Notes under the pieces: model-generated
Told to the model about the DNA's origin: nothing
Databases searched by the model: none
What the model saw: the letters and a program-made list of their open reading frames with translations, nothing else
Program-made: the position numbers and the translations under genes
Shown: positions 12,046-56,679 of the stretch, in pieces
Position numbering within the stretch: the stretch's first letter is position 1
How the letters are laid out: each line of letters begins with the position of its first letter
Assembly: GCF_024172085.1 (NCBI RefSeq)
Contig: NZ_JAMZDZ010000001.1
Span: forward strand, 3,658,001-3,722,000
Length of the DNA stretch: 64,000 nt
Direction of reading: 5' to 3'
DNA from: Hamadaea flava
GTDB taxonomy: Bacteria; Actinomycetota; Actinomycetes; Mycobacteriales; Micromonosporaceae

Positions 12046-12100
12046 AGATCAGGGATATGCATGCGATCTTGGGCACGGGAAGCATGCGTATCCGTGATCT
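12046..12100. repeat. Interspersed palindromic repeat, type 1, copy A
   Basis: The left arm AGATCAGGGATATGCATGC faces a right arm whose complement reads AGATCACGGATACGCATGC (17 of 19 positions match). The 16-nt spacer begins GATCTTGGGC, the complement of the CCCAAGATC found in other copies. It lies about 230 bp past the amidohydrolase stop and upstream of proS. Confidence 0.9.
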
Positions 12101-12111
12101 TCTTGCTTCCC

Positions 12112-12281
12112 GTGCGGGAGCGCGAGCCAGCGAGCGAGCGGGCGCGTCGCGGCCGGCGCGGGAGCGCGAGCAGGCGCGTCGCGGCCCGGCGTGGGGGCGC
12201 GAGCGGGCGCGTCGCGGCCGGCGTGGGCGCGAGCGGGCGCGTCGCGGCCGGTGGGGGCGCGAGCGGGCGCGCGACGCGGCC
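12112..12281. repeat. Tandem array of about 30-bp GC-rich units
   Basis: About five degenerate units of pattern GYGGGGGCGCGAGC followed by GGGCGCGTCGCGGCCG lie directly beside palindrome copy A. No credible coding frame uses them; translations are Arg/Ala/Gly low-complexity. Other repeat islands in the window also pair a dispersed repeat with an array like this. Confidence 0.85.
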
Positions 12282-12329
12282 ACCGCAGGCGTGCAGCGTG
12301 CGTCGGGCGCGGCGTGGCGAGAGCCGCGG

Positions 12330-13421
12330 TCAGTGGGGCGAGACGATCCGGCCGCGCAGCACGATCAGGCTCGGCTCACGCAGCACGGTCAGGTCGTGTC
12401 GCGGATCACGCGGATAGACCACGAGGTCGGCCCAGCCGCCGTCGTCCAGCCCCCGGAAGCCGAGCCATTCGCGGGCACGCCACGATCCGGCTGCCAGCAC
12501 CGCCTCGGCGGACATCCCAGCCGCGTTCAGGAGCAGCATCTCCTCTGCGGCCAGCCCGTGTGCGATCCCACCGCCGGCGTCGGAGCCGACATAGATCGGT
12601 ACGCCCGCCTCGTGCGCGGCGGCGACGACGGCTGGGAAGCCGTCCCGGAGTGCGAGCATGTGCTTGGCGTACCGGGGGAACTTGGCTTCGGCGCGTTGGG
12701 CGATCGTCCCGAACGTCTCGATGTTGATCATCGTGGGCACCAGGGCGGTCCCTCGTCGGCCCATCTCGGCGACGATCTCCGTCGACAGCCCTGTGCCGTG
12801 CTCGATGCAGTCGATCCCGGCCGTGACCAGGGTCGCGACGCTCTGCTCCTCGAAGCAGTGCGCGGTGATGCGCGCGCCGGCCGCGTGGGCTGCCTCGACT
12901 GCGGCGACCAGCGTCGCATCGTCCCAGGCCGGGGCGAGGTCGCCGCGATCCCGGTCGATCCAGTCGCCGACCAGCTTCACCCAGCCTGTCCCCGCAGCGG
13001 CCTGCCGGGTGACCTCCGCGGCCACCAGCTCCGCCGGAACCTCGACCCCGATCTCGGGCAGATACCGGCGTGGGGGTGCGACATGTCGTCCCGCGCGGGC
13101 GAGCCGAGGGATGTCCGGGTCCTCGTCCAACTCGGGATACGGATAAGGCGAACCCGCGTCACGAATGGCCAGTACGCCCGCACCACGGTCGACGAGGGCG
13201 AGCTGCTTGGCCTGATCGAGGCTTCCGATCGGACGGCCACCGGGGGCGATCCCGAGGTGGCAGTGGGCGTCTACCAGTCCCGGCAGGACGAACCCACCGT
13301 CGCAGATGGTAGTGGCGCCGGGTATCGGCTCTCGCGACACCCGGTCGCCGTCAAGCCACAGATCGCCGGTCTCTTCGTCGGGAAGGAGCACACCGCGTAC
13401 GTGCAACGCCATGCGCTCCAC
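12330..13421 (-). CDS. Amidohydrolase family protein (imidazolonepropionase-like)
   Basis: The 363-residue protein has the metal-dependent amidohydrolase pattern: LPGLVDAHCHLG (HxH), VKLVGDW with the candidate carboxylated Lys, ITAHCFEE, CIEHGTG (His ligands) and VGSDAGGG (Asp). It resembles the HutI/cytosine-deaminase-like prolidase subgroup, and the substrate cannot be told. The GTG overlaps the PIN-domain gene stop (TAGTG); an ATG three codons later is equally possible. Downstream lies a repeat island with palindrome A. Confidence 0.87.
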   Translation of the reverse strand: MERMALHVRGVLLPDEETGDLWLDGDRVSREPIPGATTICDGGFVLPGLVDAHCHLGIAPGGRPIGSLDQAKQLALVDRGAGVLAIRDAGSPYPYPELDEDPDIPRLARAGRHVAPPRRYLPEIGVEVPAELVAAEVTRQAAAGTGWVKLVGDWIDRDRGDLAPAWDDATLVAAVEAAHAAGARITAHCFEEQSVATLVTAGIDCIEHGTGLSTEIVAEMGRRGTALVPTMINIETFGTIAQRAEAKFPRYAKHMLALRDGFPAVVAAAHEAGVPIYVGSDAGGGIAHGLAAEEMLLLNAAGMSAEAVLAAGSWRAREWLGFRGLDDGGWADLVVYPRDPRHDLTVLREPSLIVLRGRIVSPH

Positions 13422-13804
13422 TAGACCACAAGGATGTCGAGCTTCTTCCCGAGGGCGGCGGCGATCTTTCGGAGGTCGTCCGGATCGCTGGAGACCACGG
13501 CGGCTCCCTTGGCGAGCGCGGTGACGACCACGATCGCGTCCACTACGTCGGATGTAGCCGCTCTAGCGCAGGCGACGCCGGCCTCACGGCCGATGAGTTC
13601 GTCGTCCGGAACGATCTCGCAGTCCTTGAGCACTTCGGCGATTCCGTGCTGCCCGCGACCGCGCCAGGCCTGCGCGAGGACGACCACCGGCACGGTCGGC
13701 GTCCCCCTGCGACCAGTGATGATCCCGTTGTGCAGAGTCTTGAAACGACGGTCCCGCCGCTCGGCCGCGAGAAGTGCTCCGGTGTCGTAGACGATCGGCA
13801 TCAT
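13421..13804 (-). CDS. vapC: PIN-domain ribonuclease, VapC-like toxin
   Basis: The 127-residue protein has the PIN acidic residues in VYDTGALLAAE, DVVDAIVVVTALA and SSDPDDLRKIAA. Such toxins cleave tRNA or rRNA when not bound by their antitoxin. The start overlaps the antitoxin stop (ATGA), and the second Met may also serve. The downstream amidohydrolase start touches its stop, so it may be read through from the same promoter. Confidence 0.85.
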   Translation of the reverse strand: MMPIVYDTGALLAAERRDRRFKTLHNGIITGRRGTPTVPVVVLAQAWRGRGQHGIAEVLKDCEIVPDDELIGREAGVACARAATSDVVDAIVVVTALAKGAAVVSSDPDDLRKIAAALGKKLDILVV

Positions 13805-14151
13805 CGGCGACGGTCCTTCGGATCCATCAGACCCAAGCGGATCAGCTCGTCGTCGACCTCGCGGACGATGTCCGGGTCGTCCGGGCCGAAGAACTCGTCC
13901 AGCTCGCGCAAGCGCTGCTGGATCTTGAGGTCCGCTTCCAGGTCGGCCTGGAGCCGCTCCAGCCGCTCCTCGATGGCCTGGGAGACCCAGGCCGACATGG
14001 TGACACCCGATTCGGCTACGGCATCGCGTAGGCGTGTGTCCAACTGACTGTCCAGGGATAGCGACAACCTGACCACCTTTCCGCTGCCGGGCTTGGCGCC
14101 TGGCTCGTTCGGCTTCGTGTTGCGCGACTTCTCGCTCCCCGGCTCAGTCAC
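13801..14151 (-). CDS. vapB: Ribbon-helix-helix antitoxin, VapB-like
   Basis: The 116-residue protein has a flexible Lys/Pro N-terminus, then a ribbon-helix-helix core VVRLSLSLDSQLDTRLRDAV with GVTMSAWVSQAIEERLERL, and an acidic C-terminus expected to wrap the toxin. Its GTG is 6 nt after a TAACAT -10 hexamer, and a perfect 6-bp inverted repeat lies across that promoter. This is the classic self-repressing toxin-antitoxin layout. Confidence 0.85.
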   Translation of the reverse strand: MTEPGSEKSRNTKPNEPGAKPGSGKVVRLSLSLDSQLDTRLRDAVAESGVTMSAWVSQAIEERLERLQADLEADLKIQQRLRELDEFFGPDDPDIVREVDDELIRLGLMDPKDRRR

Positions 14152-14157
14152 AAGCCA

Positions 14158-14187
14158 ATGTTATTACGCAGTAATACGAAGGGGCAA
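14158..14187 (-). promoter_or_regulatory. vapBC promoter with embedded operator palindrome
   Basis: On the minus strand, -35 TTGCCC (14182-14187) and -10 TAACAT (14158-14163) are 18 bp apart, and GTG follows 6 nt later. The inverted repeat TATTAC-GCA-GTAATA (14162-14176) lies in the spacer and touches the -10. It is AT-rich against a GC-rich background. A ribbon-helix-helix antitoxin bound here would block the promoter. Confidence 0.7.
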
Positions 14188-14218
14188 GGACGATTCACGA
14201 TCGCCCTTGCCCCTTCGT
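14176..14218 (-). terminator. Terminator hairpin after the SGNH hydrolase gene
   Basis: Long arms ACGAAGGGGCAAGG and CCTTGCCCCTTCGT, with an additional CGAT/ATCG inner pair, start 15 bp past the SGNH stop. The hairpin also overlaps the -35 of vapBC, so one DNA segment ends one unit and starts the next. Confidence 0.75.
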
Positions 14219-14232
14219 ACGGGCCCAGCGGA

Positions 14233-15069
14233 TCAGACCTCGGCCAGGTACGCGTTCGCGAGGACGGCGTACCCGGTGACGTTGGCGTGGATGTCGGACT
14301 TCGTGCACATCCACGTCCACGCGCAGATCCGGGCGACGGCGAGCGGCACCGTGCCGACGCCGGGCAGCGGAACCTGCGTGGTCAGGTCGGTCGAGGCGAA
14401 CGCGCCCGCGACGTCGGCGACGCGTACGCCGGCCGCCCGGTACAGCGTCGTGAGCAGCCCGTTGAAGGCCCCGCTGACCTGAATGGACTGCTGCGCCAGC
14501 GCCCGCCCGGCCGGGCCGGCCAGCCAGGCCGCCAGGTACGGGTTGTAGTAGGTCATCCCGACCATCGGCGTACGCGGAGCGATCGCCCGCAGCCGCGCCA
14601 GGATCTGACCGAGGTTGACGGCCAACGCGGCCAACGCGTTCTGTACGCACGCCGGGTCGATGGTGCCGCCCCGGGCACACCGGTTGAGGTCGTTGCCGCC
14701 GATGTCGATCGTGACGAGCGAGACCTTGTCCTTGTGCGCGTGCAGGAAGCGTTCGGCCGCTTCGAGCTGGGAATCGCGACCGGGGTACTCGCAGGTCCCG
14801 CCGGCCAGCAGCGAACCAGAGGTCTCGCCGTCGCAGCCCAGGTTCTCCAGGCGCAGCTTCGGCTCGGTGGCCTGCAGCTCACGGTGCAGCTGCCCGACGT
14901 AGCCCTCGGCGCGGTCCAGCGGCGTCGCCGGCTGATAGCCGGCTGCCAGCGAATCGCCAAGCGCCAGATAGTACGTGGTTGATCTGTCCGGCGAGGCCGA
15001 CGCGGGGGTGCCCACGAATCCGAGGGCGAGCGCGGCCACGGCGGCGACGGAGGTGATGCGTCGCAACAT
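14233..15069 (-). CDS. Secreted SGNH/GDSL-family hydrolase
   Basis: The 278-residue protein has a signal peptide ending near ASASP (residue 26) and the four SGNH blocks: GDSLAAGY (Ser), the Gly in LENLGCDGET, GGND near residue 124, and the catalytic pair in SDIHANVTGY. Six or more Cys suggest disulfides outside the cell. It is an esterase or lipase of unknown substrate. TACGTT ends 6 nt before the ATG, so it is probably a leaderless single-gene unit. Confidence 0.9.
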   Translation of the reverse strand: MLRRITSVAAVAALALGFVGTPASASPDRSTTYYLALGDSLAAGYQPATPLDRAEGYVGQLHRELQATEPKLRLENLGCDGETSGSLLAGGTCEYPGRDSQLEAAERFLHAHKDKVSLVTIDIGGNDLNRCARGGTIDPACVQNALAALAVNLGQILARLRAIAPRTPMVGMTYYNPYLAAWLAGPAGRALAQQSIQVSGAFNGLLTTLYRAAGVRVADVAGAFASTDLTTQVPLPGVGTVPLAVARICAWTWMCTKSDIHANVTGYAVLANAYLAEV

Positions 15070-15075
15070 GCCCGC

Positions 15076-15081
15076 AACGTA
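15076..15081 (-). promoter_or_regulatory. -10 element (TACGTT) for the SGNH hydrolase
   Basis: TACGTT on the minus strand, 6 nt before the ATG, without a Shine-Dalgarno. Confidence 0.5.
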
Positions 15082-15139
15082 CTCGCGAGTAGCGTCGCGC
15101 GCAGCCCCGCCGACGGCAGCGGTTGAACAGACGTGCCGG

Positions 15140-16663
15140 TTAGTTGTCGCGCTTGAAAAGCTTGTTGAAGTCGAGCTTCGGCGCCTTGAAGTCGTCTCCG
15201 CCGAGCTGCGACGGGTCGAGACCGGGCGGCAACTGCGGCATGCCGCCGCCGGGCAGACCGGCCGGGAAGCCGCCGCCGGACCGGCCGCCGCCCTTGGTGC
15301 CCTTGCGCTTGTTCTTCGGGCTCTTGGTCGCCTTGCGCCGGCCGCCGCCGGGCAGGCCCATCATGCCGCCCATCTGCTTCATCATCTTCTGCGCGTCGGT
15401 GAAGCGGTTGAGCAGCTGGTTCACGTCCATGACGGTGACGCCGGAGCCGGTGGCGATGCGCGCGCGGCGCGAACCGTTGATGATCTTCGGGTTGGCCCGC
15501 TCGGCCGGGGTCATCGAGCGGATGATCGCCGTCACCCGGTCGAAGTGCTTGTCGTCCAGGTCGTCGAGCTGACCCTTCATCTGGTTCATGCCCGGCATCA
15601 TCTTGAGCATGTTCGCGATCGGGCCCATCCGGCGGATCGCGATCAGCTGATCGAGGAAGTCTTCGAGGGTGAACTGCTCGCCACCGAGCAGCTTCGACGT
15701 CATCTTCTCCTTCTGATCGGCGTCGAAGGCCGCCTCGGCCTGCTCGATCAGCGTGAGGACGTCGCCCATGCCGAGGATGCGGCTTGCCATCCGGTCGGGG
15801 TGGAAGACGTCGAAGTCCTCCAGCTTCTCGCCGGTGGACGCGAAGAGGATGGGCTGGCCCGTCACGTGGCGTACGCTCAGCGCCGCACCACCCCGGGCGT
15901 CACCGTCCAGCTTGGACAGCACGACGCCGGTGATGCCGACGCCGTCACGGAACGCCTCAGCGGTGGCGACCGCGTCCTGACCGACCATCGCGTCGATGAC
16001 GAAGATGACCTCGTCGGGGGTGACCGCGTCGCGGATCGACGCCGCCTGCGCCATCATCTCCTGGTCGATGCCCAGCCGGCCGGCGGTGTCGACGATGACG
16101 ATGTCGCGCATGTGGCGGCGGGCGTACTCGATCGACTCCTTGGCGACCGCGACCGGGTCGCCGACGCCGTTGCCGGGCTCGGGCGCGAAGACCTCGACGC
16201 CGGCCCGCCCACCGAGCACCTGGAGCTGGTTGACCGCGTTCGGGCGCTGGAGGTCGGCCGCGACCAGCATCGGCTGGTGACCCTGGCCCTTGAGCCACTT
16301 GGCCAGCTTCCCGGCCAGCGTGGTCTTACCGGAACCCTGGAGACCGGCGAGCATGATCACGGTCGGCGGCTGCTTGGCGAACTGGAGCCGCCGCGCCTCG
16401 CCGCCGAGGACGTTGATCAGCTCCTCGTGGACGATCTTGATGATCTGCTGCGCGGGGTTGAGCGCCTGGGACACCTCGGCGCCGCGCGCCCGCTCCTTGA
16501 GCGCCGCGACGAACGAGCGCACGACAGGCAGCGCGACGTCCGCCTCGAGCAGGGCGAGCCGGATCTCGCGCGCGGTGGCGTCGATGTCGGCCTCGGTGAG
16601 CCGCCCCTTGCCGCGCAGCTTCGTGAAGATCCCCGAAAGCCGGTCGCTCAGTGTGTCAAACAC
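15140..16663 (-). CDS. ffh: Signal recognition particle protein Ffh
   Basis: Ffh targets ribosomes making membrane proteins to FtsY. The 507-residue protein has N and G domains with GLQGSGKTTLAGKLA, the AADLQRPNA insertion region, DTAGRLGID and SKLDGDARGG. The M domain includes the Met-rich MKQMGGMMGLPGGG and a Gly/Lys-rich tail. Start is GTG with AGGATG about 8 nt upstream. FtsY, its partner, is 6 kb away on the same strand. Confidence 0.97.
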   Translation of the reverse strand: MFDTLSDRLSGIFTKLRGKGRLTEADIDATAREIRLALLEADVALPVVRSFVAALKERARGAEVSQALNPAQQIIKIVHEELINVLGGEARRLQFAKQPPTVIMLAGLQGSGKTTLAGKLAKWLKGQGHQPMLVAADLQRPNAVNQLQVLGGRAGVEVFAPEPGNGVGDPVAVAKESIEYARRHMRDIVIVDTAGRLGIDQEMMAQAASIRDAVTPDEVIFVIDAMVGQDAVATAEAFRDGVGITGVVLSKLDGDARGGAALSVRHVTGQPILFASTGEKLEDFDVFHPDRMASRILGMGDVLTLIEQAEAAFDADQKEKMTSKLLGGEQFTLEDFLDQLIAIRRMGPIANMLKMMPGMNQMKGQLDDLDDKHFDRVTAIIRSMTPAERANPKIINGSRRARIATGSGVTVMDVNQLLNRFTDAQKMMKQMGGMMGLPGGGRRKATKSPKNKRKGTKGGGRSGGGFPAGLPGGGMPQLPPGLDPSQLGGDDFKAPKLDFNKLFKRDN

Positions 16664-16750
16664 AGCGCAATCATCCTGTTGGTGAGGTTTGTCCGATCAA
16701 GGGCGGCTCGTCGCCGCCCCCGAAAGACTACCCGCCTCGCAAATCGAGTG

Positions 16751-16807
16751 CGGATCACGGATCTGCATGCCATCTCAACCCAAGATCGCATGCATATCCA
16801 TGATCTG
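16751..16807. repeat. Interspersed palindromic repeat, type 1, copy B
   Basis: The left arm CGGATCACGGATCTGCATGC and a right arm whose complement is CAGATCATGGATATGCATGC match at 17 of 20 positions. The spacer ends CCCAAGATC. It sits 50 bp past the glnD stop and upstream of ffh. The two arms differ from each other more than in copies D and F. Confidence 0.88.
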
Positions 16808-16857
16808 CCGCAAACAAGCGAGCCGCAAACAAGCGGGCCGCGAGCGGGGGAAGCGGG

Positions 16858-19047
16858 TCAGTGCAGGAGGGCGAGCAGGGCGGCCTCGATGGCGGCCCGG
16901 TCGACCGGGCCGATCAGGTAGAACGTGTCCACCACGTCCGCGCCCAGCGTCGAGACCCGGGCGGCCCGGAGGTTCACGCCCAGCTCGGCGAGCGTCGAGG
17001 CGATCCGGTACAGCAGGGCCGGCTCGTCGGTCGCGCGTACTTCGAGCAGGTCGTCGCCGGGCCAGAGCAGGCGCGGGCGCGGGCGGGCGCCGTTGGGCGT
17101 ACGCGATCGGCGAGCCAGCCGAGCGGGGAGGACGAGCTGATCGAGGGCGGCTCGCCGGAGATCCGCGGCCAGCAGGTCCCGGTCCGGGGAAGCGCCGTAC
17201 CGGGGTTGCACGGCGCACTGCAGGACGGCCCGGTCCTCCACCGTGATCGAGTTGACCGCCACCACTTCGAGCTGATGCATGGCCAGACATCCCGCGACCG
17301 TGGCCAGCAGGCCCCGGCGGTCCTTGGCGGCCAGCGCGACCCAGTCCGGCGCCACCTGAACGACCGGGAGATCCGCCCCGAGCAGGGTCGGGTCGGGCGC
17401 CATCGGCGCGGGCAGCGGCGCTCCGGCCAGGCTCGCCCGGACCGCCGCGACGAGCTGGTCGATCAGCCGCGACTTCCAGGTGGTCCAGGCCGCGGGCCCG
17501 GTCGCGACCGCGTCCGACCGCGCCAGCATGTGCAGCAGCTCCAGCGTCTCGGTGTCGCCCACGATCTCGGCCACCGCGGTCACCGTCACGGGGTCGCCGA
17601 TGTCCCGCCGGGTGGCGATCTCCGGCAGCACCAGGTGATGCCGCACCAGACGCTCGATCATCACGACGTCCGCGTCCGCCAGCCCGATGCGACGCGCGAT
17701 GTCGGCCGCGAGGGGCGCGCCGACCACGCTGTGGTCGCCGGGCAGCCCCTTGCCCACGTCGTGCACGAGCGCGCCGACCAGCAACAGGTCCGGCCGCGCG
17801 ACCTCGCGTGCGTACCCGGCCGCCTCGGCCGCCGCCGACACCAGGTGACGGTCCAAAGTAAACAGATGCACCGGGTTGTGCTGCGGCGCGCCGCGCAACC
17901 TGGCCCACTCCGGCAGCCAGGCCGCGATCAGCCCGAACCGGTCGCACGCGGTCCAGGTCGGGATCAACGCCTGCCCGGACCCCAACAGACTCATCAGGGC
18001 GGTACGCGCAGCGGCGGGCCACGGATTGGGCAACGGCGGCACGTAGCGGCTCAACCACTCCAGCGTCGACCGGGCGATGGGGAGCTTCGCCGTCGCGGCC
18101 GCCGCGGCGACGCGGAGCGACAGGCTCGGGTCGGGATGCGGGGTGACCGCCGACCGGGCGAGCACCACCTCGCCGTCGCTCTCGACGACGTCGGTCGCCA
18201 ACGGCAGGCGTCGCGGCCGATGCGGTACGCCGCCCCGTCGCAACGAGGCCCGCCATCGGTGGACGGAGCGCCAGGCGTCGTCCAGCGCCCATTCGACGGT
18301 GGCCGCGTCGTTGGCGACCCGGCGCAGCAGGGCGTCCCCGTCCGGCAGATCCAGTGTCTCGGCGACGGCGGCCCGCTCGTGCGCCACGAGCCGATCCAGG
18401 TTGCGTCCCGCCGACCGGTGCAGTGCGTCACGAACGTCCAGAAGGCGGGTCTGCGCTGCGCGTATCGCCGGAGGAGTGGCGTCGGCGATGCCGGCGCGAC
18501 CGATCCCGCGGAGGATGCCCACGTCGCGCAAGCCGCCCGCGGACTCCTTGAGGTCGCCTTCGAGGAGGTGGGTCAGCGTGCCGTGCGTGGCGTGCCGAGC
18601 CTCGGTGAGTTCGCGGAGCCGGCTGAGCTGGCTCGGTGCCGTACGCCGCCAGAGGTCTGCCGCGCTCCGCGCGAGCCGCGCGGTGAGGTCGGGGTCGCCG
18701 GTGACGTGGCGTGCGTCGAGCAGGCCGAGGGCGACCTTGGCGTCCGCCTCGGCCGCGGCGAGCGACTCGTCCACGGTCCGGACCGAGTGGTCGAGCCCGA
18801 CCCGGCTGTCCCAGATCGGATACCAGATGCGCGCCGCGAGTTCCTCGACGCCGCTGACCCCGGTGTGCAGCAGGACCAGGTCGAGGTCGCCGCGAGGGGC
18901 GCATTCGCGGCGGCCGAGCCCGCCGACCGCGACGAGGCTGACGCCCGGCGGCATCGCCGAATCGGCGGCGAGCTTCGTCAGCCAGACGTCGAACGCCGCC
19001 GCACGCTCGAAGCGTGCGGCGGCGCCGATGTTCGTACTCGGAGTCAC
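16858..19047 (-). CDS. glnD: PII-modifying nucleotidyltransferase GlnD
   Basis: GlnD modifies and demodifies PII in response to glutamine; in actinobacteria this is adenylylation. The 729-residue protein has a nucleotidyltransferase motif GGLGRRECAPRGDLDL (residues 43-58), the linker with TLTHLLEGDLKES, an HD domain with HDVGKG (near 415), and two C-terminal ACT domains (DRRGLLATVAG and DEPALLYRIASTLAELG). The GTG is 7 bp after glnB. It is last of amt-glnB-glnD. Confidence 0.95.
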   Translation of the reverse strand: MTPSTNIGAAARFERAAAFDVWLTKLAADSAMPPGVSLVAVGGLGRRECAPRGDLDLVLLHTGVSGVEELAARIWYPIWDSRVGLDHSVRTVDESLAAAEADAKVALGLLDARHVTGDPDLTARLARSAADLWRRTAPSQLSRLRELTEARHATHGTLTHLLEGDLKESAGGLRDVGILRGIGRAGIADATPPAIRAAQTRLLDVRDALHRSAGRNLDRLVAHERAAVAETLDLPDGDALLRRVANDAATVEWALDDAWRSVHRWRASLRRGGVPHRPRRLPLATDVVESDGEVVLARSAVTPHPDPSLSLRVAAAAATAKLPIARSTLEWLSRYVPPLPNPWPAAARTALMSLLGSGQALIPTWTACDRFGLIAAWLPEWARLRGAPQHNPVHLFTLDRHLVSAAAEAAGYAREVARPDLLLVGALVHDVGKGLPGDHSVVGAPLAADIARRIGLADADVVMIERLVRHHLVLPEIATRRDIGDPVTVTAVAEIVGDTETLELLHMLARSDAVATGPAAWTTWKSRLIDQLVAAVRASLAGAPLPAPMAPDPTLLGADLPVVQVAPDWVALAAKDRRGLLATVAGCLAMHQLEVVAVNSITVEDRAVLQCAVQPRYGASPDRDLLAADLRRAALDQLVLPARLARRSRTPNGARPRPRLLWPGDDLLEVRATDEPALLYRIASTLAELGVNLRAARVSTLGADVVDTFYLIGPVDRAAIEAALLALLH

Positions 19048-19054
19048 AGTGAAA

Positions 19055-19417
<363 letters not shown>

Positions 19418-20938: not shown

Positions 20939-20994
20939 GAAGTGTTTCCGGCGTGTGAAGAAATCCTCACCGGCCCTTCGAAGCCGGGCGTTTT

Positions 20995-21058
20995 GCGCTG
21001 GATCAGGGTTCTCTGTCGAATCTTGCCCAAGATTCGACACGAAACCCTGATCCAGCGC
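20995..21058. repeat. Interspersed palindromic repeat, type 1, divergent copy C
   Basis: Thirty-one-nt arms (GCGCTGGATCAGGGTT... to ...TGTCGAATCTTG) match their complement at 28 positions, with a 2-nt loop. GGATCAGGG and the AATCTTG/CAAGATT centre relate it to the other copies, but the TATGC part is replaced. It starts 17 bp past the APH-like gene stop and is a candidate strong terminator ahead of the amt promoter. Confidence 0.85.
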
Positions 21059-21075
21059 AGGGGGCTGTGCTCGAT

Positions 21076-21867
21076 CTAGCGGAGGGCGTGCTCGAGGGTG
21101 TAGCGCTCGTAGTCGAGCAGGCGCAGGTCACGCATCGGGCGGCGCAGGTGGCCCTTGTTGACGATCCGGACGAACGCGGGATCGCCCGCGGCCGCCATCC
21201 GGCGAATGCCCTCGACATGGTCCACGATGCGCTTGCGGATAGTGCGGACCAGACGGTGGCGGTCGCGTGGGATCAACCCGTAGGCGTCGGCGAACAGCCG
21301 CAGCCGGCGGGGCCGGTCGGGCCGGTGCCAGCCGAGCGTCACCGAGTCCCGGTCGCTGAACAGCGGCACCCAGGTCCAGGCCGCGTACGCGACGTCGTAG
21401 ATGCGCGCGCCCGGCGAGGCCAGGTCGAAGTCGATCATCGCCAGGGTGCCGTCCGGACGCCAGATGACGTTGTGTGGCGCGGCGTCGTGGTGGCAGATCA
21501 CCTCGGCGTCCGGCGGCGGCGGGCCGAACGAGCGCCACACCGCCCCCGGCGGCGGCCGGAAACCGGCCTGCGCGTCGTGGAACATGCGCAGCATGGTGGC
21601 GACCGTGACGAGCGCCTCGTCGGTCACCCAGTACGGCTTGAGCGGGTATTCGCCGCACTCGCCGGTCAGGTAGGAGAGGACCTCGCGGCCCTGCGTGTCC
21701 ATGCCGAGCGCCCGGGGCGAGCCGGTGAACCCGGCGTGCTCCAGATGGCGCAGCAGAGCATGGACTGACGGGGTCCAGGGCCCGGCGTTCCGGCGTACGG
21801 TGTCTCCCACCCGCACCACGGTCGAGACGTTGCCTCCGCGCAGCGGGATCTCATAGTCCACAGTCAC
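21076..21867 (-). CDS. APH-family (aminoglycoside phosphotransferase-like) small-molecule kinase
   Basis: The 263-residue protein has the APH/choline-kinase catalytic loop ICHHDAAPHNVIW (HxDxxxxN) and the metal-binding Asp in AMIDFDLASPGARIYDVAY. The N-lobe is short. Substrate is unknown and resistance should not be assumed. The GTG overlaps the ftsY stop (GTGA), so it is translated with ftsY, and a long hairpin (copy C) follows. Confidence 0.88.
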   Translation of the reverse strand: MTVDYEIPLRGGNVSTVVRVGDTVRRNAGPWTPSVHALLRHLEHAGFTGSPRALGMDTQGREVLSYLTGECGEYPLKPYWVTDEALVTVATMLRMFHDAQAGFRPPPGAVWRSFGPPPPDAEVICHHDAAPHNVIWRPDGTLAMIDFDLASPGARIYDVAYAAWTWVPLFSDRDSVTLGWHRPDRPRRLRLFADAYGLIPRDRHRLVRTIRKRIVDHVEGIRRMAAAGDPAFVRIVNKGHLRRPMRDLRLLDYERYTLEHALR

Positions 21868-23188: not shown

Positions 23189-24253
23189 GTGTCTTTCCCG
23201 CACACCTTTTACCTGGATGACGCCGACTCTCCCGTCGACGTGATCGACGCCATGGCGCTCGCCGAGTTCGCGACGGGCGCTCAGCCCTTCGCGCGTACGC
23301 AGCGCCTGGAACGGGTGCGGGCGGACGCGTTGCTGCTGCCGGCCGGGGCCGAGATCCGGCGCGCCGCCCGGGACGACGGGACCAGCTCCCACCTCGCCAC
23401 CGGCGACGGCTGGACACTGCGCGCCGTACGCTGGCGCGGCGGTTCGGCTGTGGTGACCGTCACGGCCGCCTCCGCCGAGCTGGCCCGGACCGTCCTGGAG
23501 GAAAGCGTCAAGGACGTCCAAGAGCCGGAGACCGCCGACGTCGAGACGGTCGAGGTCGGCTTCGCCCACTTCACCGGCCACGGCCCCCGGCGCGCCGTAC
23601 GCAAGATCGCCACGACTCCGTGGACCGAGCTGCGGTCGAACTACGCGACCGCGGTCGCGGCGCAGTTCGACCGGCTGATGACGCTCACGCCGGACACGAT
23701 CGACGGACGGCTGCTGCTCCTGCACGGTCCGCCCGGCACCGGCAAGACCACCGCTTTGCGTAGCCTCGCCCGCGAATGGCGTTCATGGTGCCGGATCGAC
23801 GCGGTCATCGACCCCGAGACGCTCTTCGGTACGCCGTCCTACCTGATGAGCATGGCGGTCGGCGTGGACGACGACGAAGAGGGCCCGCGCTGGCGGATGC
23901 TGCTGCTGGAGGACTGCGACGAGCTGATCCGGGGCGAGGCCAAGCAGTCGACCGGGCAGGCGCTGTCCCGGCTGCTCAACCTGACCGACGGGCTGCTCGG
24001 GCAGGGACGCAACGTGCTGGTCGCGATCACGACGAACGAGGATCTCGCCCGGCTGCACCCGGCGGTCCTGCGCCCGGGACGCTGCCTGGCGCGGATCGAG
24101 GTGACCCCGCTCCCCCACGCCGAAGCCACCACCTGGCTGGGGACGCCGACGGGCATCCCGGCGACCGGCGCGACCCTGGCCGAGCTGTACGCCCTCCGCT
24201 CCGGCACACTGACCGCCCCGGTCGAAGACGAGCGCGTCGGCCAATACCTCTGA
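23189..24253 (+). CDS. AAA ATPase, DUF5925-type
   Basis: The 354-residue protein has an N-terminal region of unknown fold (LDDADSPVDVIDAMALA) and a C-terminal AAA module with Walker A GPPGTGKTT, Walker B MLLLEDCDE, sensor-1-like ITTNEDLA and HPAVLRPGR. This matches the actinobacterial DUF5925 AAA proteins, whose role is unknown. The GTG at 23189 is preferred because homologues start near MSFPHTFYLDD; a TTG at 23153 is an alternative. It is a single-gene unit, divergent from ftsY, ending before palindrome D. Confidence 0.83.
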   Translation: MSFPHTFYLDDADSPVDVIDAMALAEFATGAQPFARTQRLERVRADALLLPAGAEIRRAARDDGTSSHLATGDGWTLRAVRWRGGSAVVTVTAASAELARTVLEESVKDVQEPETADVETVEVGFAHFTGHGPRRAVRKIATTPWTELRSNYATAVAAQFDRLMTLTPDTIDGRLLLLHGPPGTGKTTALRSLAREWRSWCRIDAVIDPETLFGTPSYLMSMAVGVDDDEEGPRWRMLLLEDCDELIRGEAKQSTGQALSRLLNLTDGLLGQGRNVLVAITTNEDLARLHPAVLRPGRCLARIEVTPLPHAEATTWLGTPTGIPATGATLAELYALRSGTLTAPVEDERVGQYL

Positions 24254-24316
24254 CCCTCACTGCCGCCCACTTGGGCACGCCGTCCGTAGGCACACCGGCC
24301 CGCTTGGGCACGCCGC

Positions 24317-24397
24317 CGACGTTGGCACTAGATCATGGATATGCCTGCTAAAAGTGCCCAAGATCGCAGGCATATCCATGATCTGGTGCCAACGTCG
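24317..24397. repeat. Interspersed palindromic repeat, type 1, copy D
   Basis: Arms of 32 nt match at 31 positions. The common core is AGATCATGGATATGCCTGC; copy-specific outer arms are CGACGTTGGCAC / GTGCCAACGTCG. The 17-nt loop ends CCCAAGATC. It is centred between two convergent genes (63 bp and 68 bp from their stops), flanked by GC-rich low-complexity DNA. A two-way terminator is the simplest role. Confidence 0.93.
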
Positions 24398-24465
24398 GGT
24401 CCGAAAGCGGGCCCGAAGGCGAGCCCGGAGCGCGCCAAAAAGCGGGCCGAAGCGGGCCCGAGGGC

Positions 24466-25074
24466 TCAGAGGCCCAGTGCGGCCTTCAGGTAGGGAAGGT
24501 CGGAGTGCCCGCTCCACCGGAAGGCGGCAATCCCGACCCGCCGTGCGCCTTCGACGTTGCGCTGTGAGTCGTCCACGAACAGGCAGTAGCGCTGCACTGT
24601 GCGTACGGCGACACAGGCGGCTTGGAAGTATTCGGGCTGGGGTTTGGCGTACCCGAGGTCGGAGGAGTTGACGACGGCGTCGAAGTCTTCCGCGATGCCC
24701 AGTTGGACGAGGTCGTCCGCGAGGTCACGGGGTGCGTTGCTGCACAACGCGACGGGTATGCCGGCCGCGCGTACTTCCCGGACGAACTCCAGCACCTCGC
24801 GGTCGAGGTAGCCCCGGTATCGGGCCAGTTCGTCCACATCAGACTCCGTCAGGCCGAGCGCGGCGCCGACGTCGGCGAGCCATTCGGCCCGGGTCCACCC
24901 GCCGGTGACGAGGGTCCGATACCGGTCCGGCTCCATCGCCGCCTGGAAGATCGCCCCGGGTTCGAGGAAGTGCCGATCCTCGATCGCCGCGTCGATCGCG
25001 CCGTCGAAGTGGCGCACCACTCCGTCCAGGTCAATGAGCAGGGCTTTCGCAGGTTCGCGTACGCCGGTCATCAA
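24466..25074 (-). CDS. HAD-superfamily hydrolase
   Basis: The 202-residue protein has HAD motif I LIDLDGVVR (nucleophile and acid Asp), motif II LCSNAP, Lys in LGYAKPQPEYF and motif IV FVDDSQRNVEGA. The cap is helical (subfamily IA-type). It is probably a small phosphatase; substrate unknown. Its ATG overlaps the smc stop (ATGA), so it is the second gene of an smc-HAD unit, where many actinobacteria have other genes. Confidence 0.9.
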   Translation of the reverse strand: MMTGVREPAKALLIDLDGVVRHFDGAIDAAIEDRHFLEPGAIFQAAMEPDRYRTLVTGGWTRAEWLADVGAALGLTESDVDELARYRGYLDREVLEFVREVRAAGIPVALCSNAPRDLADDLVQLGIAEDFDAVVNSSDLGYAKPQPEYFQAACVAVRTVQRYCLFVDDSQRNVEGARRVGIAAFRWSGHSDLPYLKAALGL

Positions 25075-28649: not shown

Positions 28650-28790
28650 GGGTCTCCGCTGTCTCGTGAAGGTGCAGAGGTGGAGCCTACCCGCTGGGGG
28701 TCCGGCGTCGGCGGCGGCGCGGCGGGACGAGGTGCCGCTGCCATCTACCCACTATCCGACAGCCCCACACAAGCGCAGCTCAGCCCCGAG

Positions 28791-28852
28791 GTGATCACGG
28801 TCCCGCGGACACGACACACCGGTGGATCACGACGATAAGTTCATGATCGCGC
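28791..28852. repeat. Interspersed repeat, type 2, copy G
   Basis: This about 60-bp segment shares long blocks with 46049-46112: GATCA, GGACACGACAC, CCGGT, GATCA and GTTCATGATC in the same order and spacing, roughly 85% identical by eye. It holds several short GATC palindromes but no single clean hairpin. It lies between the small coiled-coil gene and smc. Confidence 0.8.
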
Positions 28853-28870
28853 AGAAGGGGGGGTTGGGGG

Positions 28871-28934
28871 GAGCAGCCGGTAGGCGGCGAGGCCGGGGGG
28901 TGGGGGAGCAGCCGGTAGGCGGCGAGGCCGGGGG
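28871..28934. repeat. 35-bp-period direct repeat (two copies)
   Basis: GAGCAGCCGGTAGGCGGCGA followed by GGCCGGGGG occurs twice (from 28871 and from 28906), joined by G-rich DNA. It follows type-2 copy G directly. In the 370-bp gap between smc and the next gene I see only these repeats and a terminator. Confidence 0.85.
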
Positions 28935-43918: not shown

Positions 43919-44143
43919 GCCTACATCCTGATTCAGACCGAGGTCGGTCGGGCTCGCGACGTGGCCGCCGAGATCGAGAAGATTTCGGGTGTGGTCCGCG
44001 TCGACGCGGTCACCGGTCCGTACGACGTCGTCGTGCTCACCGAAAGCCCCAACGTCGACGAACTCGGCCGGTTGATTATCAGTAAAGTGCAGGCCGTGCC
44101 CGGCATCACCCGTACCCTGACCTGCTCGGTGGTCAAGCTTTGA
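43910..44143 (+). CDS. Stand-alone Lrp/AsnC ligand-binding (RAM) domain protein
   Basis: The 77-residue protein consists only of the AsnC_trans_reg fold (AYILIQTEVGRARDVAAEIEK start, then GPYDVVVLTE and GITRTLTCSV). It lacks a helix-turn-helix, so it cannot bind DNA itself and would sense amino acids or modulate full-length Lrp proteins. Such single-domain proteins next to thiL and DUF3515 are conserved in actinobacteria. Its stop overlaps the TTG of the next gene. Confidence 0.92.
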   Translation: MVHAYILIQTEVGRARDVAAEIEKISGVVRVDAVTGPYDVVVLTESPNVDELGRLIISKVQAVPGITRTLTCSVVKL

Positions 44144-44709
44144 GCCCACGCCTCCTCGCGGCCCTCGTCGCCGTGCCGGCAGCGCTGCTGACCGGCGCGG
44201 TCGTGTTCGCCATGGGCATGCCCGGCAACACTTCCGAACAGCCCAACGCGACGGCGACCGGTCCGGTGACCGTCGCCGACCGGCAACTGGGCGAACGAGC
44301 CACCGTCGTCTGCCGCGCGCTGGTCGCCAAGCTGCCCGATCGCGTACGCACCGCCGCCCGCCGCCCCGTCACCGCCGGGTCGGAGCAGAACGCGGCGTAC
44401 GGCGATCCCGCGCTCGTCGTGTCGTGCGGCGTGCCGGCGCCGAGCTTCCCCAGCACCGACGACGTCTGGCTGCTCAACGGAGTCTGCTGGCACGCCACCG
44501 AGAACTCCGGTTCGACCGTCTGGCAGACCGTCGATCGGGAGATCCCGGTGCAGGTCAGCGTCCCCGGGGCGAAGGACGGCTCGTCGCAGTGGGTGATCGG
44601 GCTGACCACCGCCATCGGGTCCACCGTACCGAGCGCCTCGACCACGCCCAGTGGGTGTACCACCGTGGCTGTGCCGACGGCGTCGATCTCGGCCGCCGCC
44701 GGGTCCTGA
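44140..44709 (+). CDS. DUF3515 membrane-anchored protein
   Basis: The 189-residue protein has an N-terminal membrane helix (LLAALVAVPAALLTGAVVFA), an ectodomain with four conserved Cys (VVCRAL, VVSCGVP, GVCWHA and SGCTTVA) and DDVWLLNGVCW, the DUF3515 landmark. Function unknown; conserved beside thiL and ddl (Rv2980 type). TTG start overlaps the preceding stop (TTGA). A palindromic element begins 38 bp after it. Confidence 0.88.
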   Translation: MSPRLLAALVAVPAALLTGAVVFAMGMPGNTSEQPNATATGPVTVADRQLGERATVVCRALVAKLPDRVRTAARRPVTAGSEQNAAYGDPALVVSCGVPAPSFPSTDDVWLLNGVCWHATENSGSTVWQTVDREIPVQVSVPGAKDGSSQWVIGLTTAIGSTVPSASTTPSGCTTVAVPTASISAAAGS

Positions 44710-44747: not shown

Positions 44748-44812
44748 GCGGCAGATCAGGGATATGCCTGGGATCTTGGGCCAAGATTCGCGGCATATCC
44801 GTGATCTGCCGC
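44748..44812. repeat. Interspersed palindromic repeat, type 1, copy E
   Basis: Outer arms GCGGCAGATCAGGGATATGCC and its partner (20 of 21 match). A nested inner palindrome GATCTTGG-GCCAAGATTC fills the loop, so both conserved motifs of the family are seen on both strands. It lies 38 bp past DUF3515 and 55 bp before the ddl promoter hexamer. Confidence 0.92.
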
Positions 44813-49758: not shown

Positions 49759-49764
49759 TGAGGC

Positions 49765-50598: not shown

Positions 50599-50601
50599 GC
50601 T
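50596..50601 (+). promoter_or_regulatory. -10 element (TAGGCT) for the small OB gene, built on the CHAD stop codon
   Basis: As at 49753, the preceding gene's TAG stop starts the hexamer TAGGCT, and the ATG comes 6 nt later. Confidence 0.55.
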
Positions 50602-50607
50602 GACCCC

Positions 50608-50805
50608 ATGCAGGGCACCGTTTCGGAGTTCGATCCGCAGACCCGTGCCGGAGCGGTGCTGCTCGACGACGGCACCGAGGTCCGGTTCTCACCGGCCGCG
50701 TTCGCCGCGGGCGGGCTGCGGCTGCTGCGCCTCGGGCAGCGGCTCCGGCTGGAGCGCGACGAAGTCGGCGAGGTCGTGCGCGTGACGTTACCCACGCTGC
50801 CCTGA
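50608..50805 (+). CDS. Small cold-shock-like OB-fold protein
   Basis: The 65-residue protein reads MQGTVSEFDPQTRAGAVLLD, DDGTEVRFSPAAF and LGQRLRLERDEVGEV. The layout follows cold-shock domains (GTVxxFDxxxGxGxI, DG, FS, GQ), but the aromatic RNP residues that bind nucleic acid are mostly replaced. It may bind something other than single-stranded RNA. Conserved between CHAD and ppk in relatives is plausible but unchecked. Confidence 0.75.
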   Translation: MQGTVSEFDPQTRAGAVLLDDGTEVRFSPAAFAAGGLRLLRLGQRLRLERDEVGEVVRVTLPTLP

Positions 50806-50820
50806 GCCGAGTTGTGGGAA

Positions 50821-50842
50821 GTTCACCTTCGCGTCACCTGGG
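50821..50842 (+). promoter_or_regulatory. Candidate PHO box (PhoP direct repeats) before ppk1
   Basis: Two adjacent 11-nt units, GTTCACCTTCG and CGTCACCTGGG, match the direct-repeat GTTCACC-type PHO boxes known from Streptomyces. They overlap the expected -35 region; AAGAAT (50849-50854) would be the -10, 6 nt before the ppk GTG. Confidence 0.6.
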
Positions 50843-50860
50843 CCTGGCAAGAATGAGTAG

Positions 50861-52918: not shown

Positions 52919-52929
52919 CGGGTATGGGA

Positions 52930-52959
52930 ACAGGCGCCCGTGGTTGCACGGGCGCCTGT
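52930..52959. terminator. Terminator between convergent ppk1 and hupB
   Basis: A perfect 13-bp hairpin ACAGGCGCCCGTG / CACGGGCGCCTGT with loop GTTG lies 11 bp past ppk1 and 15 bp past hupB. Confidence 0.9.
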
Positions 52960-52974
52960 CAGGTAGGGACTTGC

Positions 52975-53616
52975 TCAGCGTCGAGCAGCCTTCTTAGCCG
53001 GGGCCTTCTTGGCGGGCGCCTTCTTCGCCGTCGCCTTGGCAGCCGACTTCGCGGGGGCCTTCTTCGCCACAGTCGCCTTGGTCGCGGCCTTCTTGGCCGG
53101 AGCCTTCTTCGCCGCCACCGACTTCTTGGCGGGCGCCGACTTGGTCGCGGCCTTCTTCGCCGGAGCCGTCTTCTTGGCGGCGGCGGCCTTGGTCGCGGTC
53201 GCCTTCTTGGCGGGCGCCGCCTTCTTCGTAGCGGCCTTGACAGCAGTGGTCTTCTTGGCCGCCGCCGTCGCCGTGGTCTTCTTGGCGGCCGCGGTCTTCT
53301 TGGCCGCGGTGGTCGCCGTCTTCTTCGCGGCGGCGGGCTGCTTGCCGCTCGCCACCGCCTCCTTGAAGCCGGCGCCGGCGCGGAACGCCGGAACGGCCGT
53401 CTTCGGCACCTTCACCGCTTCGCCGGTGCGCGGGTTACGCGCCGTCCGGGCGGCCCGCTGCCGCTTCTCGAAGACACCGAATCCGGTCAGCGACACCTTG
53501 TCGCCCTTGGTGACAGCGGTTTCGATTTCGGCCAGAACGGCGTCCAGCGCGGCGGTTGCGGTCTTCTTATCCCCCAACCGGGCGGCCAGTGCCTCGATGA
53601 GCTCGGCCTTGTTCAC
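52975..53616 (-). CDS. hupB: HU-family nucleoid protein with histone H1-like tail
   Basis: The first 90 residues are HU ([43 protein letters not shown]). About 120 residues of Lys/Ala/Pro/Thr repeats (PAKKA, TAAKKT) follow, the actinobacterial HupB/HU-S tail that binds DNA and other polyanions. ATG with GGGAGGG 5 nt upstream. The 191-bp upstream gap is comparatively AT-rich and should hold a strong promoter, but I cannot assign elements with confidence. Confidence 0.96.
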
Positions 53617-53763
53617 GGTTCCCTCCCGAGTGTTTCCTTACTGGACTTTCAACCAGTCATTCTTCGCGCACGCTAAGCCCTGCCATACACATTTCCAAAC
53701 ACGTGACGGGTAAACGGCATTTGTGTCGCGCGTATGTCTCTAACTGGCAGTGTGCAACAAAAG

Positions 53764-53794
53764 TGAGGCCCGCGCTCGTTGAGCGCGGGCCTCA
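53764..53794 (-). terminator. Terminator after leuD
   Basis: Hairpin TGAGGCCCGCGCTC / GAGCGCGGGCCTCA with loop GTT, 13 bp past the leuD stop. Confidence 0.88.
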
Positions 53795-53807
53795 GGCATT
53801 CGTGGAG

Positions 53808-54395
53808 TCAGGCGACAACCGGTTGGTACACCGGGCGTGTGGCCTCGAAAGCGGTGATCGAATCGGCGTGCAGAAGGGTCAGGCCGATGTCGTCCAAGCC
53901 CTCCAGCAACCGCCAACGACTGAAGTCATCCAGCTCGAAAGCCCAGGTAGAAGCCCCGGCGCGGACTTCCCGCGCGGCGAGGTCCACAGTCACCTCCGCC
54001 GTCGGGTCGGATTCCGAACGGGCCCAAAGACTTTCGACTGCGTCGATGGGAAGCTCGACCGTCAACAGCCCTTGCTTCAACGAATTCCCCCGGAAGATGT
54101 CACCGAATCGGGGGGCGATGACGACCCGGAAGCCCCAGTCACGCAGGGCCCAGACGGCGTGTTCCCGGGAGGAGCCCGTGCCGAATTCGGGGCCGGCGAC
54201 CAGAATCGTGGCGGCGGCGTACGCCGGGTCGTTGAGCACGAAGGCGGGATCCTCACGCCAGGCGCTGAACAGTCCGTCCTCGAACCCGGTGCGGGTGACC
54301 CGCTTCAGGTACACCGCCGGGATGATCTGATCCGTGTCCACGTTAGAGCGGCGCAGTGGAACCGCCGCACCGGTGTGGCTGGTGAACTTGTCCAT
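53808..54395 (-). CDS. leuD: 3-isopropylmalate dehydratase small subunit
   Basis: The 195-residue swivel domain reads [33 protein letters not shown] and [15 protein letters not shown]. It pairs with LeuC in leucine synthesis. ATG at 54395 with GAGGAA upstream, 25 bp after leuC; a longer frame upstream overlaps leuC and is not used. Confidence 0.96.
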
Positions 54396-54420
54396 GTCTC
54401 GTGTTCCTCGGTTCCCTCGG

Positions 54421-55851
54421 TCAGACCAGGTCGGCGGGCGCGGCCAGGCGGCCCGTGACGGCGGTGGCGGCGGCGACGGGCGGCGAGACGAGATGCGTAC
54501 GCCCACCCTTGCCCTGCCGGCCCTCGAAGTTGCGGTTCGAGGTGGAGGCCGAGCGCTGCCCCGGCTTCAGCGTGTCCGGGTTCATCCCCAGGCACATCGA
54601 GCACCCCGCGAACCGCCATTCGGCGCCCGCCTCGGTGAACACCTGGTCCAGTCCTTCGGCCTCGGCGGCCGCCCGAACCGCGGCGGAACCGGGGACGACC
54701 AGCATGCGTACGCCCTCGGCCACCTTGCGGCCCTTCAGCACGCCCGCAGCGGCCCGCAGATCCTCCAGTCGCCCGTTCGTGCAGGAGCCGACGAAGACCA
54801 CGTCGACCTCGACATCCCGCAGCTTCTGCCCCGGGGTGAGCCCCATGTACGCCAGCGCCCGCTCGGCGGCGGCCTTCTCGCCTTCGTCCACGAACGACTC
54901 GGGGTCCGGCACGGCGGCGTCCAGCGGCGCGCCCTGGCCCGGGTTGGTGCCCCAGGTGACGAACGGGGTGACCTGGCTGACGTCCAGGGTCACCTCCCGG
55001 TCGAAGACCGCCCCGTCGTCGGTGCGCAAGGTACGCCAGTGCTCCACGGCCGCGTCCCAGGCGTCGCCCTGCGGCGCGAACCGGCGGCCCTTGAGCCAGG
55101 CGAAGGTGGTCTCGTCCGGCGCGATGAGGCCCGCCTTGGCGCCCCACTCGATGGACATGTTCGAGATGGTCATCCGGCCCTCCATGGAGAGCTGCTCGAT
55201 GACCGGGCCGCGGTACTCCACCACGTAGCCGCGTCCGCCGCCGGTGCCGACCTGCGTGATCAGCGCCAGGATCAGGTCCTTGGCGGTCACGCCGGGCCGC
55301 AGTTCGCCGACGAAGTTCACGGCCATCTGCTTCGGCCGCGCCTGCGGCAGCGTCTGCGTGGCGAGGACGTGCTCGACCTCACTGGTGCCGATGCCGAAGG
55401 CCAGCGCGCCGAACGCGCCGTGCGTCGAGGTGTGCGAGTCGCCGCAGACGATCGTCGTGCCGGGCTGCGTCAGGCCCTGCTGCGGCCCCATGACGTGGAC
55501 CACGCCCTGCTCGGGGTCGCCCAGTGGGTGCAGCTTGACGCCGAACTCCGCGCAGTTGCGGCGCAGCGTCTCGATCTGGGTCCGGCTGACCGGATCGGCG
55601 ATCGTGAGGAGGTTGTCCGTGGGGGTGTTGTGATCCTCGGTCGCGATCGTGAGATCGGGCCGCCGCACCGGGCGGCCGGCCATCCGCAGGCCGTCGAAGG
55701 CTTGCGGGCTGGTCACCTCATGGAGCAGATGCAGGTCGATGTAAAGCAGATCGGGTTCGCCGGCTGCGGATCGGACTACGTGCGCGTCCCAGACCTTCTG
55801 GGCCAACGTCTTGGGCTGGCCGAACTCCTGGCTCTTCACTCGAGAGCTCAT
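54421..55851 (-). CDS. leuC: 3-isopropylmalate dehydratase large subunit
   Basis: The 476-residue aconitase-fold protein has [35 protein letters not shown], and Fe-S Cys ligands in VGSCTNGR and [15 protein letters not shown] at 55851 with GGAG upstream. It is divergent from the IclR gene across 67 bp that hold a palindrome, the standard leuCD regulator layout. Confidence 0.97.
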
Positions 55852-55873
55852 CACTGTTACTCCCACCATATGG

Positions 55874-55894
55874 ACATCCCAGCTTTTGGGAGGT
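55874..55894. promoter_or_regulatory. Candidate operator between leuC and the IclR regulator
   Basis: ACATCCCA-N5-TGGGAGGT is an inverted repeat (7 of 8 positions) in the 67-bp divergent gap. It is where an NdgR/LtbR-type IclR protein would bind to control leuCD and itself. Confidence 0.5.
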
Positions 55895-55918
55895 ATGTTT
55901 CGGTGTGTGGGACACAGT

Positions 55919-56605
55919 ATGTCTGGCGTGGGCGTCCTTGACAAGGCGGTAGTGATTCTGGCCGCCTGCGTCGACGGCGCGAGCCTCGCTGAACTCGTCG
56001 ATCGCACCAAGCTGCCGCGGGCAACGGCGCACCGGCTGGCGCAGGCCCTGGAGATCCATCGCATGCTGGTACGCGACACGCAGGGCCGCTGGCGCCCGGG
56101 CCCCCGGCTCGGGGAGCTCGCCAACGCCGCGCCCGACGTCCTGCTGACCGCCGCCGAGCCGCTCCTGGCCGCCTTGCGCGACAACACCGGCGAAAGCGCC
56201 CAGCTCTACCTCCGCCGAGCGGACGAGCGCATCTGCGTGGCCGCCGCCGAGCGGGCTTCGGGCTTGCGCGACACCGTGCCGGTCGGCTCGATACTGCCGA
56301 TGACGGCTGGTTCGGCAGCACAGGTGCTGCTGGCCTGGGAGCCGCCCGAGGCGGTCATGCCGCTGCTGCCCCGCTGCAAGTTCACCGGAAAGACCCTCGC
56401 CGAGGTACGCCGTCGTGGCTGGGCGCAGTCGGTCGCCGAACGGGAAGCCGGTGTGGCGAGCGTCTCCGCCCCGATCCGGGACCGCACCGGGCGGGTGATC
56501 GCCGCGATCAGCGTTTCCGGCCCGATCGAGCGCCTCGGCCGCCGGCCCGGCGATCGGCACGCGATGGCGGTCGTCCGCGCCGGCCAGCGCCTGTCCGGCC
56601 TCTGA
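55919..56605 (+). CDS. IclR-family regulator of leucine genes (NdgR/LtbR-like)
   Basis: The 228-residue protein begins [14 protein letters not shown], has a winged helix-turn-helix ([21 protein letters not shown]) and an IclR effector domain (LDNxxES-like [15 protein letters not shown], then [18 protein letters not shown]). NdgR/LtbR proteins sit divergent to leuCD throughout actinobacteria. The ATG at 55919 matches their usual N-terminus. Its stop is followed within 5 bp by palindrome F. Confidence 0.92.
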
Positions 56606-56610
56606 CCTGC

Positions 56611-56679
56611 TAGCTGCAGATCACGGTTACGCATGCCAAAACCCCGTTGGGAGGCATGCGTAACCGTGATCTGCAGCTA
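56611..56679. repeat. Interspersed palindromic repeat, type 1, copy F (perfect arms)
   Basis: Twenty-seven-nt arms (TAGCTGCAGATCACGG with TTACGCATGCC, and complement) match perfectly around a 15-nt loop AAAACCCCGTTGGGA. The core AGATCACGGTTACGCATGC belongs to the family; the outer TAGCTGC is unique to this copy. It lies 5 bp past the IclR stop and between that gene and the convergent tRNA unit. Confidence 0.95.

Follow-up and report, generated by a model that had tools for sequence, protein, structure and literature searches.

What are six long palindromes, each lying behind the 3' end of a gene, doing in one stretch of the Hamadaea flava genome? The window analyzed here is 64,000 nt long (positions 3,658,001–3,722,000 of an 8.86-Mb single-contig genome, G000), and a sequence-only reading of it had described the six, A to F, as a related set of intergenic elements; each was found where it had been placed. 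We favor, with a probability of roughly 0.55, the answer that A–F are dispersed palindromes of the REP/MITE kind (repetitive extragenic palindromes and miniature inverted-repeat transposable elements) belonging to one genus of soil bacteria within its family, whose types replace each other at slots located at gene ends. As RNA, all six give folding energies of -33 to -59.5 kcal/mol (z -5.8 to -14.2), which none of 200 shuffles equaled for any copy, and by our own gene calls a 3' end lies upstream of every one at a distance of 13 to 230 nt. An Rfam scan of the window at gathering scores returned two tRNAs only, with no match at any palindrome copy. The comparison drew on three further genomes of the genus: G001 and G002, which are Hamadaea metagenome-assembled genomes 87% and 97% complete, and G003, the fourth.

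Type I, the form of five of the six, is highly repeated. Its half-site GATCANGGNTANGC has 271 exact matches in G000 (133 + 138), against 0 + 0 for the reversed pattern, a result that rejects chance palindromes and bears out both the excess over chance and the relatedness of the copies. Among the 100 places listed, the half-sites stand mostly as inverted pairs 39 nt apart; a single-site reading, resembling uptake sequences, was rejected on this ground, unpaired half-sites being limited to three of the 124 candidates listed (804415, 1492923, and 2305650, all intragenic). Type I has at least 124 candidates, of which 120 are good consensus matches, three are chance matches, and one is copy C. The core measures 53 nt in 115 of the 120 good matches listed, 52 nt in three, and 54 nt in two. 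Removal of an overlapping half-copy at 983410 leaves the 119-copy set, and the 53-nt cores with stricter scores form the 114-copy set used for the logo, pairing, and tail tests. The logo of the latter, from about -8 to +61, reads TTnGCTGCA-GATCACGG(T/A)TA(C/T)GCATGC-N17-GCATGC(G/A)TA(A/T)CCGTGATC-TGCAGCnAA, so that conservation spans about 70 nt around the core. It contains no U-tract, and a stretch of 8 nt with five T lies no more than 28 nt from the core in only one of the 114 listed copies on each strand. The flank logo of these copies likewise holds no conserved GTAG or CGTC, the REP tag; within 15 nt of the core, GTAG occurs in 7 and CGTC in 12 of the 114 copies, against 2 and 30 in a distant control. 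Inside the window, the loose arm pattern (up to two mismatches) matches 31 times, compared with 15.4 expected and 28 in the top one of 100 shuffles. When loops were sorted into hand-made classes, GATCTTG accompanied TTCC 16 times (15.8 expected) and CTCC rarely (1 vs. 8.5), while CTCC with CATC was in excess (9 vs. 3.6); free mixing of loop modules was rejected.

Two local arrangements of type I are recorded separately. At 983410–983505, overlapping units 42 nt apart form a partial tandem duplication, represented by a single unit in the G001 orthologue, and identical copies 236 bp apart occupy 7012610 and 7012846.

Type I is one member of a superfamily that also includes two sister types, II (to which copy C belongs) and III (in G003). 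All are built of inverted halves with GATCANGG outermost and then about 10 nt peculiar to each type, and types II and III as well as many type I copies have an ATCTTGG-like center. The common arms claimed for all six palindromes are present in A, B, D, E, and F, which are the type I members of the window; copy C is excluded, as its arm is GGATCAGGGTTCTCTGTCGAATC and not RGATCANGGATAYGCATGC, and it represents the sister family repeated in two relatives, for which the consensus (n = 46) is GCGCTGGATCAGGGTTCTnGGTCGAATCTTGnnCCAAGATTCGACCnnGAACCCTGATCCAGCGC. The loop CCCAAGATC, said to be shared by most copies, or its complement is found in A, B, C, and D and as a near variant in E; F lacks it. Among 43 type III copies, 41 combine half 'a' (AAATCACCCGAATC) with one of three other halves, two are a/a, and none lacks 'a'; by our arithmetic, random joining at the observed half frequencies would give about 12 a/a copies and about 10 without 'a'. 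In tandem gaps, half 'a' is proximal to the upstream gene in 8 cases and distal in 11, with no clear orientation bias. The type III units of G003 also carry an extra flanking inverted pair, CCAAGATC ... GATCTTGG, which brings the whole palindrome nearer to 90 nt, and GATCNNGG-like motifs repeat inside each half.

The distribution of these sequences was assessed in genomes of the Micromonosporaceae. Strict type I palindromes number 98, 59, 69, and 0 in G000 to G003, respectively, and were found in none of 146 other genomes of the family. The wider superfamily pattern, GGATCANGGN{35,39}CCNTGATCC, matches 100, 169, 176, and 179 times in the same four genomes, with a control of 0; of 350 other family genomes, 12 contain a single match and the rest none, so outside the genus the pattern is at chance level. 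The top matches of a literature search held no description of palindrome repeats in Hamadaea or the Micromonosporaceae, which leaves their absence from print unproven.

Placement was determined with a home-made codon-usage gene caller. Of the 119 listed type I copies of G000, convergent gaps hold 44, tandem gaps 57 (of which 53 are closer to the 3' end), and divergent gaps 11; the other 7 touch a predicted gene. Gaps of at least 75 nt without a type I copy in the same regions number 15 convergent, 74 tandem, and 83 divergent. The convergent excess (Fisher p 1.3e-9) and the divergent deficit (Fisher p 2.6e-12) are both strong, and the median distance from the stop codon is 24 nt. As for the sister types, the 43 type III copies include 20 convergent, 19 tandem (15 closer to the 3' end), 1 divergent, 2 touching a gene, and 1 at an edge, and 16 copies in G002 loci fetched as type II divide into 6 convergent, 7 tandem (all closer to the 3' end), 1 divergent, 1 in a gene, and 1 at an edge, group-wise counts being used for this set, which includes at least one type I copy. 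The claim that the palindromes follow 3' ends and never enter genes therefore stands for the six in the window and fails genome-wide, given the seven gene-touching copies. Three of these seven lie well within an open reading frame (ORF), in frame: one in a GT87 glycosyltransferase, one in an ABC protein that we take to be CydC-like, at the linker between its membrane part and its ATPase part, and one in a membrane protein for which DUF2157 gives a match below threshold. The copy in the ABC protein has in-frame orthologues, of type I in G001 and type II in G002. A strict test that demands coding score on both flanks is passed by 4 of 251 distinct copies, two of them interdomain, in an ABC protein and in a PucR-type regulator.

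Orthologous slots were then compared over four 20-kb stretches of G000; five loose matches labeled '?/?' (two each from G000 and G002 and one from G003) were dropped as spurious, and copy C of G002, with its enlarged loop, did not enter the count. Of 34 gaps with a 3' end, 12 are occupied in G000, and these hold 9 of the 10 elements of G001 and 9 of the 10 of G002 (p 3.7e-5 each, the two tests not being independent). Slots are often shared among species whose aligned genes differ by about 10%. The type occupying a slot varies: at 10 type I sites of G000, G001 has type I at five, type II at three, and none at two, and G002 has type I at four, type II at five, and none at one, one G001 site labeled '?/I' being read as I and one G002 site labeled 'I/II' as II. 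Type II accordingly sits at a type I slot in 8 of 20 comparisons, and at seven such sites G003 has type III at two and none at five. Slot B and the slot at 5226334 hold an element in all four genomes, with three types represented. By eye, the G000 copy at 5226334 joins a type I core to a right outer arm of type II (CAGCGC), and the core at 4508985 is a type I/II hybrid; these two sites suggest replacement or mixing of types.

The REP/MITE-like character put forward in the sequence-only reading is upheld by the high copy number, the restriction to a single genus within the family, the REP-like 3'-flank bias, and the few in-frame insertions, and our interpretation takes in the fixed length, the three types, the slot sharing, and the type differences at the same slot as well. 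In this view the half-sites are the conserved unit, retained or acquired anew at gene ends. Spread would depend on an enzyme acting in trans that recognizes the paired half-sites at the DNA level, perhaps in a cruciform or single-strand hairpin. Survival at gene ends may reflect purging from, or poor targeting of, other places, and where a slot is already occupied, the shared GATCANGG ends could allow conversion or template switching to put one palindrome in place of another. In transcribed copies, the hairpin may also terminate or shield transcripts arriving from either side, an effect that would favor retention of the element. In a more specific version, to which we give only tentative credence, slots are inherited and cores are exchanged, by a non-Y1 enzyme or by a replication-linked template switch through the shared 8–9-nt ends, with one species joining almost only unlike halves.

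Several observations weigh against this interpretation. The four stretches were picked because they hold G000 copies, and in them slot sharing with G003 (2 of 4, p 0.44) is not significant. Exact-register replacement was seen in only one of six alignable type I/II pairs (four of 16 type I/I pairs), the flanks changing too fast for it to be demonstrated. Empty orthologous slots exist, with flanks too diverged for a target-site duplication or a clean footprint to be recognized. Covariation of the type I arms (z 5.7) is also what a selected hairpin would be expected to display. The link to a REP-associated tyrosine transposase (RAYT) that had been proposed was not borne out: the search for a mobilizer, made with the Y1/RAYT profile PF01797 alone and in G000, gave 0 matches, with 5 of 14 controls (E. 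coli and four others) positive. A parent insertion sequence (IS) with these ends was not found either, in a check that consisted of reading the half-site list.

The strongest competing explanation, which we consider unlikely, is that the palindromes are lineage-specific 3'-end elements that work in both directions, either as U-less terminators or by blocking 3' exonucleases, in which an RNA hairpin is selected and the useful part has been amplified. The strong predicted hairpins, the median of 24 nt past stop codons, the convergent excess, and the retention of slots between species all agree with it. A role in ending transcripts is possible and would fit the placement, and an RNA 3'-end role is plausible because structured ends that lack a U-tract are frequent in Streptomyces clavuligerus, where passages of PMC8269248 put them at 353 of 1,427 mapped transcript ends. 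The pairing of halves gives a divided answer. Shuffling the type I halves between copies lowers pairing from 19.78 to 18.85 (z 5.7, n = 162), and for the arms alone 16.46 of 18 positions pair, compared with 15.56 in shuffled halves; in type II the observed and shuffled values are 22.46 and 22.59 of 26 (z -0.9, n = 46, a set assembled from pattern matches and from sequences similar to copy C), and in type III pairing rises on shuffling, from 18.29 to 20.50 (z -2.9, n = 17). Since shuffling lowers pairing in type I and not in types II and III, within-copy pairing is weakly favored in type I only. There, core positions 6, 9, 12, and 15 covary (pairing 0.81, 0.82, 0.72, and 0.87 vs. 0.61, 0.50, 0.48, and 0.71 expected), and no covariation was found at most outer-stem and loop positions of the 114 listed copies; outer-stem compensation, suggested by the first copies, was rejected as pairing lies near the column expectation at most outer positions. 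Across 26 orthologous type I comparisons, arms diverge by 11% and loops by 32%, in a sample biased by loci having been fetched for holding an element. Both sides are altered in 20 arm pairs, 16 of which retain pairing; the double changes are weak evidence, because 12.8 would be expected from per-position rates. Against a transcript-end function stand the missing U-tract, the type II halves that pair no better than shuffled ones, the unlike and worse-than-shuffled arms of type III, the in-frame copies within ORFs, and a separate T-tailed hairpin beside copy D, which matches the terminator scan.

A second competing explanation regards the palindromes as operator-like or architectural sites for a candidate dimeric or tetrameric DNA-binding protein that would set the spacing. 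The fixed 53-nt length, the conserved half-site, the orientation independence, and the restriction of type differences to the middle of the arm would suit it, but recent common descent of the copies also yields a fixed length, the placement is behind genes and not at promoters, and the preferred sequence changes genome-wide between species, all of which make this proposal improbable. Ordinary unrelated terminators or chance palindromes, alike by accident, would account for the positions behind genes and are virtually excluded by the genome-wide repetition with a control of 0, the fixed length, and the absence of a U-tract.

The six window copies are described here one by one. Copy A (type I; 12046–12100, core 12047–12099, 53 nt) lies in a tandem gap between minus-strand genes 10483–11892 and 12330–13421, and its slot is occupied by type I in both G001 and G002 but empty in G003. 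Short GC-rich near-tandem repeats surround it (11980–12330) and are missing at the orthologous sites. Copy B (type I; 16751–16808, core 16753–16805) is 52 nt 3' of minus-strand gene 16858–19047, at a slot that G001 and G002 fill with type II and G003 with type III. Copy C (type II; 20994–21059, core 21001–21052, 52 nt) is 23 nt, in the type I frame, 3' of minus-strand gene 21076–21861; the slot has type II in G001, nothing in G003, and an enlarged loop in G002, where the type II loop has grown by about 50 nt with both arms kept. Copy D, a type I element with a long outer stem (24316–24398, core 24331–24383), occupies the convergent gap between 23189–24253 (plus) and 24466–25071 (minus), with type I in G001 and G002 and none in G003. 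The T-tailed hairpin mentioned above (24460–24443, minus strand) separates it from the 3' end of gene 24466–25071; the terminator scan of the window gave seven matches including this one, against 5.5 in shuffles. Copy E (type I with an ATCTTGG center; 44748–44812, core 44754–44806) is 44 nt 3' of plus-strand gene 44140–44709; its slot is empty in G001 and G003 and coincides with a contig break in G002. Copy F (type I with perfect 27-nt arms; 56611–56679, core 56619–56671) follows plus-strand gene 55928–56605 by 13 nt, faces minus-strand tRNA-Glu and tRNA-Gln, and is matched by type I in G001 and G002. The window also contains, at 28783–28880, a dispersed repeat that the sequence-only reading did not list (GATCAGGG...GGACACGACACGCCGGTYGATCACGACCGWTAGTTCATGATCGCG). 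Of its 36 distinct copies among the loci fetched, 13 lie in convergent gaps, 15 in tandem gaps, and 1 in a divergent gap, with 1 further copy inside a gene and 6 at edges.

About 100 or more related palindromes per genome thus mark gene ends across a genus. Should they terminate transcripts as well, many transcription units of the genus would have their ends defined by them, and G000, with no detectable RAYT, is a genome in which another mobilizer can be sought.

Among known systems, canonical intrinsic terminators differ in having the U-tract that these hairpins lack. The U-less (I-shaped) or structured ends of high-GC actinobacteria are closer, being stable hairpins behind genes without a U-tract (predicted ones in the present case), but in the passages of PMC8269248 they do not appear as a fixed-length repeated family. 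As regards MITEs, the half-site list revealed no parent IS for the Hamadaea palindromes, and no target duplication was recognized in the diverged flanks. Rickettsia palindromic elements (RPEs), palindromic dispersed DNA that passages of PMC10969869 describe as able to sit in frame within ORFs, share this in-frame insertion, whereas by description they measure about 150 bp and are often intragenic, compared with a 53-nt core (about 70 nt conserved) and the 4 strictly intragenic copies of 251 in Hamadaea. The repeats most resemble REPs and their paired forms (REPINs), which, as far as the consulted parts of the sources go, also comprise many short inverted repeats per genome, with inverted paired halves, located behind genes and rare in divergent gaps. 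A 3'-flank bias is reported for REPs in passages of PMC3733652, and dimers of unlike members are described there and in parts of PMC3116915; since such heterodimers are on record, the unlike halves of type III alone are not unprecedented. The enzyme usually linked to REPs, a Y1 transposase, was not found in G000, and the GTAG/CGTC tag is absent from the logo; the Hamadaea unit is fixed at 53 nt, and its halves do not evidently form separate hairpins. A further difference is that the Hamadaea palindromes vary in type at the same slot among related species; site keeping and sequence spread, usually confounded for REPs, are separable here.

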